In this document: positions 42,169 through 62,033 of the stretch, piece by piece
Layout of the letters: each line of letters starts with the position of its first letter
Position numbering within the stretch: the first letter of the stretch is position 1
Assembly (NCBI GenBank): GCA_017541145.1
Contig: JAFXZT010000043.1
Coordinates: 1-64,000, forward strand
DNA length: 64,000 nucleotides
DNA from: Bacteroidales bacterium
GTDB lineage: Bacteria; Bacteroidota; Bacteroidia; Bacteroidales; UBA3824
Direction: 5' to 3'
The notes under the pieces: generated by a model
What the model was told of the DNA's origin: nothing
Databases searched by the model: none
What the model saw: the letters and a program-made list of their open reading frames with translations, nothing else
Made by a program: the position numbers and the translations under genes

Positions 42169-42411
42169 GGTATTTATTGATTTTTCACGATTGAAATTTT
42201 ATTGAATAGTGGGTATTCGTTGATTTTTCACGATTGAATTTTTATTGAATAGTGGGTATTCGTTGATTTTTCACGATTGAATTTTTATTGAATAGGGGGT
42301 ATTCATTGTTTTTTCACGATTGATTTTTTATTGAATAGTGGGTATTCATTGATTTTTCACGATTGAATTTTCATTGAATAGTGGGTATTCATTAGTTTTT
42401 CACGATTGAAA
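42169..42411. repeat. 43-bp tandem repeat array (five full copies plus partial ends)
   Basis: Units beginning TTTTTCACGATTG start at 42181, 42224, 42267, 42310, 42353 and 42396, exactly 43 bp apart. A partial copy precedes 42181 and the last is truncated. Each unit holds an inverted repeat TGAATA-GTGGG-TATTCA, with G for the final A in two copies. No ORF runs through it. It fills the divergent gap between the helical-protein gene and the Na/Pi transporter gene; nothing else is visible in 41973-42619 apart from a -7-like TATATTTG at 42576-42583. Confidence 0.92.
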
Positions 42412-44436: not shown

Positions 44437-44463
44437 GTAGAGACGCAAACATCGCGTCTCTAC
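44437..44463. repeat. Copy of the dispersed palindromic repeat, perfect 10-bp arms
   Basis: GTAGAGACGC (44437-44446) and GCGTCTCTAC (44454-44463) flank a 7-nt centre. The remaining gap to 44692 shows no gene. Confidence 0.8.
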
Positions 44464-57527: not shown

Positions 57528-57712
57528 GACAAATCGTATAATAATATTGGACAAATCGTTTAATGATATTGGACAAGAGCCGCGAGCATCGCGTCTCTAC
57601 AAACGTGATGCGTTACGTAAAACGGATATGTAGAGCCGCGATGTTCGCGGCTCGGTAGAATTGTTTGTTCAATATCTTTGTACAATCCGTTTAATAATCT
57701 TGGACAAGACTG
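57528..57712. repeat. Composite repeat locus: 22-bp units around a pair of inverted palindromes
   Basis: Units beginning (G)ACAAATCGT repeat at 57528, 57550 and 57572 (22-bp step), and again at 57681 and 57703. Between them 57577-57600 and 57630-57653 are inverted copies matching at 22 of 24 positions, each itself palindromic (GAGCCGCGA/TCGCGGCTC in the right one), around a 29-nt core. No ORF is credible here. Confidence 0.8.
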
Positions 57713-57741: not shown

Positions 57742-57767
57742 AATCCAATAATTTGCGAAAAAAAAAT

Positions 57768-58019
57768 ACAGCTTTTGCGCATGTAGCAGTTCCATTGTTT
57801 TTTTTCAATGGCATCGCTACATGTGTTTTTGTTCCGCCTACGAAAAAAATTACAGCTTTTGCGCGTGTAGCAGTTCCATTGTTTTTTTTCAATGGCATCG
57901 CTACATGTGTTTTTGTTCCCTTGCGAAAAAAAATTACAGCTTTTGCGCGTGTTGCAGTTCCATCGTTTTTTTTCAATGGCATCGCTACATGTGTTTTTGT
58001 TCCGCCTACGAAAAAAAAT
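57768..58019. repeat. Three tandem 84-bp units, each folding into a hairpin
   Basis: Units starting ACAGCTTTTGCGC begin at 57768, 57852 and 57936. Each contains CATGTAGC...GCTACATG outer arms and CCATTG/CAATGG inner arms around eight T; the first-position arms vary slightly in copies 2-3. Linkers alternate between TTGCG and CCTACG before an A-run. Because 84 is divisible by three, ORFs run through on both strands, but both are just repeats of ~28 Lys/Phe-rich residues and are not called as genes. Further right, 58021-58202 shows nothing. Confidence 0.9.
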
Positions 58020-60235: not shown

Positions 60236-61285
60236 ATGAAGCTATCTAAATTTAAATTTGATCTTCCGGATAAATTGATTGCGCAAACCCCTTCTCCTAA
60301 TAGAGATGAGTGTAAGTTGATGGTTCTCAACAGAGCGAAGAGAACGATTGAACACAAGAAATTTGGTGATATCACTAAGTATTTTGATGAAGGTGATGTG
60401 ATGGTTTTCAACAATTCTAAGGTAATACCTGCTCGTTTGTATGGTAATAAGGAGAAAACCGGCGCAAAGATTGAAGTTTTTTTGTTGAGAGAGCTCAATA
60501 AGGAACAGCGTCTTTGGGATGTGCTTGTGGATCCGGCTCGTAAGATTAGAATTGGTAACAAGTTGTATTTTGGTGAAAACGACAGCCTTGTAGCTGAGGT
60601 GATTGACAACACAACTTCAAGAGGAAGAACGCTCAAGTTTTTGTTTGACGGACAGTACGACGATTTCAAGAAATTATTATATAGTTTGGGCGAGACTCCG
60701 TTGCCTAAATATATTCACCGCCCTGTTACTGAGGAGGATCAGGAACGTTATCAGACTATCTATGCAAGATATGAGGGTGCAGTTGCCGGTCCTGCTGCGG
60801 GTTTCCACTTTAGTAAGAATCTTTTGAAAAAGTTGGAAATTGTGGGTGTTAATTTTGCAGAGATTACTCTTCACATGGGTTTGGGACATCTTAGAAGTGT
60901 TGAGGTAGAGGATCTTACTAAACACAAGATGGATTCTGAACAGATTATGATTAGCGAGAAATGCGCCGAAATGGTGAATAATGCTAAGGATCAGGAAAAG
61001 AAGGTTTGTGCTGTTGGTATTACTACTTTGAGAACTTTGGAAAGTTCGGTTTCTACTAACGGTTATCTTAAACCTTATAATGGTTGGACTAATAAGTTTA
61101 TTTTCCCGCCGTATGATTTTAGTGTTCCGAGTGCTTTGATTACTAATCTTCATCAGCCTTATTCTACGATGTTGATGTCGGCAAGTGCGTTTGTCGGTTT
61201 TGATTTTCTTATTGAGGCTTACAACGAGGCTGTTAAGAAGAAATATATGTTCGGCGATTACGGCGATGCTATGCTTATTTTGTAA
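60236..61285 (+). CDS. queA: tRNA preQ1(34) S-adenosylmethionine ribosyltransferase-isomerase
   Basis: 349 aa. [56 protein letters not shown] and [14 protein letters not shown] are conserved QueA motifs. It transfers the ribosyl part of SAM to preQ1 in tRNA, giving epoxyqueuosine. With truB it forms a tRNA-modification pair, ended by the terminator at 61309. Confidence 0.97.
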
Positions 61286-61308
61286 ATGAGATATACGGAA
61301 TATAAAAG

Positions 61309-61338
61309 GAGGTAGTCTGATAAAGGCTACCTCTTTTT
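61309..61338 (+). terminator. Terminator of truB-queA
   Basis: GAGGTAG (61309-61315) pairs with CTACCTC (61327-61333), then TTTTT. Confidence 0.8.
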
Positions 61339-61354
61339 ATATGTTTTTTTTAAA

Positions 61355-61437
61355 ACACGGAAAAACGGAAAATACGAGAAATTAACGGAAATCACGTAAA
61401 ATACGAGAAACTAACGGAAAATACGGAAAATTAACGG
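61355..61437. repeat. Low-complexity ACGGAAAATACGAGAAA repeats
   Basis: The words ACGGAAA and ATACGAGAAA recur; ATACGAGAAA is repeated at a 29-bp step (61372 and 61401). A reverse-complement relative (TTTTCGTGATTTTCGTAATT) lies at about 59285-59312. No coding potential. Confidence 0.55.
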
Positions 61438-61438
61438 T

Positions 61439-61653
61439 GAGACGTTGTACACAACGTCTCTACTCGCATTGAACGGATTGCGTATTATTGTTGAATGAAT
61501 TGCGTATTATTGTTGAATGGATTGCGTATTATCATTGAATTGCGTATTATTGTTGAACGGATTGTGCATTATTATTGTATGAATTGCGTATTATTGTTGA
61601 ACGGATTGTGCGTTATCATTTGATTGCAGTAGAGACGTTGTGTACAACGTCTC
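61439..61653. repeat. Composite repeat: 22-bp array bounded by perfect 25-bp inverted palindromes
   Basis: 61439-61463 and 61629-61653 are exact reverse complements over 25 bp; each is also internally palindromic (GAGACGTTGT/ACAACGTCTC). Between them, TTGAACGGATTGCGTATTAT-type units start at 61469, 61491, 61513, 61535, 61553, 61575 and 61597 (22-bp steps, one of 18). No ORF of note. Confidence 0.9.
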
Positions 61654-61757
61654 AAAATAAAATTATCATAAAACCTCGATAGTTGTAATTTCAAAGTTTT
61701 TAGCGTTTTTTGTAGTTGATAAAAAATATGGATAGGGGAGATGGCGTGGTTTTGGGG

Positions 61758-61782
61758 TGACGCCATGGTATGACGTCTCTAC
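61758..61782. repeat. Degenerate copy of the dispersed palindromic repeat
   Basis: GTGACGCC...GACGTCTCTAC keeps the conserved CGTCTCTAC end, and GACG/CGTC arms flank a CCATGGTATGA centre. It directly precedes a terminator. Confidence 0.5.
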
Positions 61783-61820
61783 AAAAAAAAGAGGTAGTCA
61801 AATGGCTGCCTCTTTTTTTA
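61783..61820. terminator. Bidirectional intrinsic terminator
   Basis: GAGGTAGTC (61791-61799) pairs with GGCTGCCTC (61804-61812) with two G-T pairs and an AAAT loop. Eight A precede and seven T follow, so it can stop the minus-strand transcript from the 42-aa ORF. Confidence 0.75.
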
Positions 61821-61904: not shown

Positions 61905-62033
61905 CTAAATTTCGCTATAACTATCGGCACAATCTAAAGCGAGTGTGGCAATCATTTCAGCAAGTGACATTGCATCAGCAGCTTCTGCTCTTTCTACAAC
62001 TTCTTCGAGACTTTCGTTTGCATTTGTATTCAT
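61905..62033 (-). CDS. Putative 42-aa acidic peptide gene
   Basis: ATG at 62031-62033, 42 residues beginning MNTNANESLEEVVERAEAA and containing a single Cys in ALDCADSYSEI. It is rich in Ala and Glu, with codon choice like neighbouring genes, and likely one amphipathic helix. No signal peptide, TM segment or double-Gly leader. An intrinsic terminator lies ~90 nt after the stop. It could be a small regulatory protein or a precursor peptide; nothing around it indicates which. The gap 62034-62324 shows no other gene. Confidence 0.4.
   Translation of the reverse strand: MNTNANESLEEVVERAEAADAMSLAEMIATLALDCADSYSEI

Follow-up and report, generated by a model that had tools for sequence, protein, structure and literature searches.

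The gap between queA and a small convergent ORF

The window, that is, the whole stretch of 64,000 nucleotides under analysis, lies on contig 123 (C123) of a 4.63-Mb draft genome in 192 contigs. In it, queA (60236-61285, plus strand), which codes for tRNA preQ1(34) S-adenosylmethionine ribosyltransferase-isomerase, is followed by an intrinsic-terminator-like hairpin identified by a terminator scan (61300-61342, plus strand) and is separated by ~620 bp from a convergent 42-aa ORF (61905-62033, minus strand; MNTNANESLEEV...SYSEI). This ORF had no match in family searches, and small ORFs similar to it adjoin queA in several congeners. A second terminator-like inverted repeat (61784-61819, minus strand) resembles the first, is absent from the consensus list of the terminator scan, and probably serves the convergent side. 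The two hairpins bracket the element described below and may represent one duplicated terminator; the 61784-61819 copy has no other match with up to three mismatches in the genome. The idea that the pair constitutes a long target duplication was considered and set aside; none of the relatives' loci that were read has that terminator.

Between these two hairpins lies a perfect inverted repeat of 27 nt (61438-61464 and 61628-61654) with a gap of 163 nt, slightly longer than the exact 25-bp reverse complementarity recognized in the first-pass annotation. Each arm is a REP composed of a GTA(G) foot and a 9-bp hairpin, GTA-GAGACGTTG-TGTA-CAACGTCTC, whose stem starts at the G of GTAG, in agreement with the definition of GTAG-tagged REPs, in which GTAG stands at the 5' foot of a stem-loop of 6-13 bp. 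The right REP (61629-61653) reads GTAGAGACGTTGTGTACAACGTCTC on the plus strand, and the left REP (61439-61463) gives the same reading on the minus strand, each within its 27-nt arm. Both feet point inward, an arrangement known as a tail-to-tail (TT) GTAG-REP dimer. As single-stranded DNA, each arm is predicted to form on its own a stem of 9 bp capped by a loop of 4 nt (-8.8 kcal/mol, z ~ -4.8), as had been proposed for each end. The arms are not perfect palindromes, however, as the central dinucleotide, GT/AC, makes each of them directional. The full 217 nt can fold as DNA into one long hairpin (z -5.5), and 61438-61654 has the inverse REPs, the linker and the long hairpin of a BIME/REPIN-type dimer.

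The TT spacer (61464-61628, 165 bp) consists of an 8-bp lead-in, seven tandem units (61472-61621), and a 7-bp lead-out. On the head side, the flank TTAACGGT (61431-61438, plus strand) is common to other genome copies of this REP class, and a degenerate tandem array of 29/20/9-bp period, ACGGAAAATACG...TTAACGG, abuts the left REP (61357-61437). A third, divergent REP, GTAGAGACGTCATACCATGGCGTC (61759-61782, minus strand), has an 8-bp stem with one G-T pair and is similar to the TCATAATATGGCGTC class, whose members surround RAYT genes in genomes G002 and G015.

The dimer and its array are absent from all 12 same-genus queA loci that were read downstream (L056-L066, L070), a comparison that leaves out four further same-genus loci with unread downstream sequence (L067, L068, L069, L071). 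In one of the 12 (L064, genome G001), the gap contains another palindrome, single and double-footed, and the gap measures ~55-60 bp in G013 and G016, as against ~620 bp in the window genome. None of these loci gives a base-exact empty site: identity to the congeners in QueA is 75-89%, a divergence too great for one, and no target-site signature or duplication could be defined at the locus.

These data also bear on the possibility that the long hairpin is transcribed and acts as a 3'-end stabilizer, an attenuator, or a terminator of queA. Its predicted RNA fold is strong (61430-61660, z -6.9), and a position downstream of a gene such as queA is typical of REPs, according to Di Nocera 2013 (PMC3733652). 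However, the canonical terminator at 61300-61342 stands between queA and the element, and with the second terminator-like repeat on the convergent side the element is probably little transcribed. An Rfam scan yielded no match above threshold, with sub-threshold chance matches only, and the congeners do without the dimer. A function at the RNA level is therefore unlikely.

Dispersal of the REP family and its RAYT genes

The first-pass annotation had reasoned that a 25-mer confined to this locus would speak against mobility. In the window's own genome, 42 matches to it were found with up to three mismatches, compared with none for a reversed-pattern control, and no shuffle gave a match to the 22-bp unit, which excludes chance. 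The wider family, defined as GTAGAGACG-N10-CGTCTC, has 61 matches with at most one mismatch (control, 0), a count in which overlapping double-foot palindromes are scored on both strands. Short-read assemblies break at repeats, and several of the matches are located at the ends of contigs; these counts are thus probably lower bounds. Copies are dispersed, including some within genes at C9 and C171. A putative restriction-modification-type gene at C9:10680-11428 (L028, L030) contains, apparently in frame, two double-foot REPs of 28 bp that belong to class GGTGTGCACACC.

Among related genomes, the family was detected in 21 of the 25 searched, including every same-genus genome searched except G013, and identical copies of the 25-mer are present in further genomes, among them Nostoc, Crocosphaera, Odoribacter, and Paludibacteraceae. 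An alignment of 33 distinct REPs from the own and related genomes revealed compensatory variation in the stem: its three inner pairs, the only informative ones because the outer stem bases are fixed by the search pattern, display 51 double-sided changes, with 98% of cells able to pair. The covariation score was 0.397, compared with 0.087 in shuffles, and none of 500 shuffles scored as high. This covariation indicates that the ability of the palindrome to form a hairpin has been maintained despite the divergence of its inner sequence.

The proposed check for a TnpA-REP-like transposase turned up RAYT (TnpAREP) genes bearing the REP family in the genus and beyond. In relatives, these genes are flanked by REPs of the family, and in many of them a further REP lies in frame a short distance past the HUH motif. 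The in-frame REP is generally of the same class as the flanking ones, as seen for L145 (CGATTAATCG), L147 (CAAAATTTTG), L149 and L172 (TCATAATATGG type), and L154 (GGGCATGCCC); some RAYT-like genes had no such REPs. L155, a RAYT from the same order, has TTGCATGCAA as its flanks, and on a contig of Candidatus Buchananbacteria (L139) a RAYT that also carries an internal REP has the exact window 25-mer on one side and TTGCGCGCAA on the other. The RAYT proteins match NF047646 (REP-associated tyrosine transposase) with 50-71 bits, below the curated cut-off of 80 bits.

Two such genes were found in the window's own genome. The C171 RAYT (C171:8732-9652; L085, L148) is a single open frame of 347 aa that holds ~8 REP-encoded repeats of class GGTGTGCACACC, at 54-bp spacing, after the HUH motif. 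At C58:14592-15080 (L086, L106), an intact RAYT-like gene lies near GTAGGGGCGRACCTATGTGTTCGCC hairpins of the GTAGGGGCG type, a second type of GTAG-REP. Apart from these and two IS200-like genes, none was detected, and no RAYT in the draft, whose 192 contigs include several that end inside REPs, is flanked by the TTGTGTACAA class. The mobilizer of that class may hence have been lost, may be unassembled, or may be the enzyme of another class.

According to PMC6006769, TnpAREP proteins of subclass 2.4 abound in Cyanobacteria and Bacteroidetes and go together with long and 'double-foot' REPs, and their genes have REPs inserted in frame between HUH and Y; the in-frame REPs observed here are therefore not new. 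RAYT genes both flanked by cognate REPs and carrying them in frame, the hallmark used for this subclass, were found for the family in relatives, with internal REPs at C171 of the own genome and with the RAYT of L139 bordered by the exact 25-mer, but a cognate RAYT of the TTGTGTACAA class was not found in the same genome. The assignment to subclass 2.4 is based on an approximate fit to the published motifs NH[IFV]H, WQ, and YIxNNP rather than on a tree.

With a short non-coding core enclosed by terminal inverted repeats that match perfectly over 27 nt, the element might be taken for a classical MITE mobilized by a DDE-type transposase. Yet its terminal repeats are hairpins that also occur singly, head-to-tail (HT), head-to-head (HH), and within genes, without the core; the associated transposase is a Y1/HUH RAYT; and no target-site duplication was identified by comparison with congeners 75-89% identical in QueA. 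These features make a DDE-type origin extremely improbable.

Several other repeats were observed in the window. At 57759-58017, an 84-bp tandem array of 3.1 copies includes GTAGCGATGCCATTG-A8-CAATGGAACTGCTAC hairpins, another GTAG/CTAC-footed palindrome whose pattern matches the genome only there. Further GTAG-footed hairpins are located at 44440-44463 (minus strand, GTAGAGACGCGATGTTTGCGTCTC) and 57630-57653 (plus strand, GTAGAGCCGCGATGTTCGCGGCTC), and a 43-bp tandem array of 5.6 copies with 93% matches occupies 42169-42410.

The tandem 22-bp spacer

Tandem Repeats Finder reported the spacer array with a period of 22 and a score of 175. As first described, seven units of ~22 bp lie between the ends: units 1-3 (61472-61493, 61494-61515, 61516-61537) and 5-7 (61556-61577, 61578-61599, 61600-61621) are 22 bp each, and unit 4 (61538-61555) is 18 bp. 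In the own genome, the 22-bp unit is found only at C55, C62, C63, and C123, always within clusters of the window REP class, and it was found in none of the 17 congeners searched. The TT spacers of 37, 58, 124, and 165 bp approximate 15+22n, with n = 1, 2, 5, and 7, that of the window falling 4 bp below the formula on account of its 18-bp unit. Another TT dimer, at the start of contig C55, has a 91-bp spacer with a diverged 22-bp period, and one long HT spacer at C55 is made of 18-bp units. C62 and C63 contain alternating TT/HH REP arrays. The head flanks read AACCGTTAA at C62 and C63, and the C55 cluster ends with CGTCTCACCGTTAA; the flank TTAACGGT being common to the copies, the repeated unit extends slightly past the palindromes.

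The first-pass annotation had considered a protein-binding platform with two helical turns per unit. On such a reading, the 22-bp units would be phased, operator-like sites bordered by hairpins. The period is indeed held in six of the seven units, recurs at C62 and C63, and persists in diverged form in the dimer at the start of C55. However, the 18-bp units in the window and in the long C55 spacer break the helical phase, the number of units is 1, 2, 5, or 7 depending on the locus, and the unit is missing from all 17 congeners. Variable unit number and broken phase favor a local tandem expansion over a phased platform, which now seems very unlikely.

Tandem arrays were present at 12 of 21 REP loci and in 9 of 116 control tiles, an exploratory comparison in which some arrays are the REPs themselves, the REP windows are unequal and often longer, and the tiles include coding DNA. 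Arrays of 13 bp and of 14/15 bp lie beside REPs at C157 and C55. That nicking by REP-bound RAYTs actively drives local tandem amplification of spacer and flank, REP dimers thereby acting as seeds of new minisatellites, is unlikely.

Proposed origin and relation to known REP systems

The segment 61438-61654 is very probably, as judged from sequence, a TT dimer of GTAG-tagged REPs, a non-autonomous element of the BIME/REPIN type on which a RAYT of subclass 2.4 would act in trans. The original suggestion of a small non-autonomous element thus gains support from the dispersed copies, the orthologous loci without the element, and the RAYT genes that carry the REP family. The cleavage activity of TnpAREP is governed by the REP hairpin and the GTAG motif, as shown in PMC8266576. 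In the window dimer, the palindrome would form a single-stranded hairpin and the GTAG foot would serve as a guide, both recognized in trans by a Y1/HUH RAYT of subclass 2.4. This enzyme would nick single-stranded DNA at the GTAG-hairpin and may have copied or moved the dimer into the gap between the terminators of queA and of the small ORF. The 22-bp units would then result from a later, local expansion of the dimer spacer rather than form an independent element, by slippage or unequal exchange, possibly aided by hairpins that stall replication.

Apart from its spacer, which is countable and unusually long, the element is a typical representative of a known REP class. It provides a clear worked case that extends GTAG-REP dimers and their RAYTs in a Bacteroidales-type genome, in which spacer length changes by increments of 22 bp and the palindrome sequence is found again next to a RAYT from another phylum. 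The case also illustrates that an ordered array between genes can be a REP dimer whose spacer has expanded and not a regulatory platform. No description of tandem 22-bp spacers was met in the limited portion of the REP/RAYT literature consulted.

As in the subclass 2.4 systems of PMC6006769, the family combines a GTAG foot with a long palindrome, and many copies also end in CTAC, forming a double foot. The copy in the window differs in that it is a TT dimer of the single-foot kind whose tandem spacer is long, and no cognate RAYT was found in its genome. Di Nocera 2013 (PMC3733652) reports dimers of GTAG REPs, among them TT dimers whose spacers vary, as well as intragenic REPs, and its text lists Bacteroidetes under CGTC repeats. 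The window dimer shares with these TT dimers the inward feet, the variable spacer, and the location by gene ends in a convergent intergenic gap, but while most of their spacers are 20-100 bp, that of the window is 165 bp of tandem 22-bp units. REPINs, as presented by Bertels and Rainey 2011 (PMC3116915), are similarly inverted REP doublets that can form one long hairpin, are linked to RAYTs, and occur in tandem genome clusters. In the strict sense, however, REPINs replicate as doublets with a characteristic spacing, 71 bp between 16-mers in GI, whereas the window family follows ~15+22n, with TT spacers of 37, 58, 91, 124, and 165 bp, and its single and HT copies are common in the genome. Finally, the E. 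coli BIMEs and their REPtron also associate a REP and an inverted REP through a linker, as in the alternating TT/HH arrays of C62 and C63, but have an unrelated stem sequence and a RAYT of another subclass (2.2).
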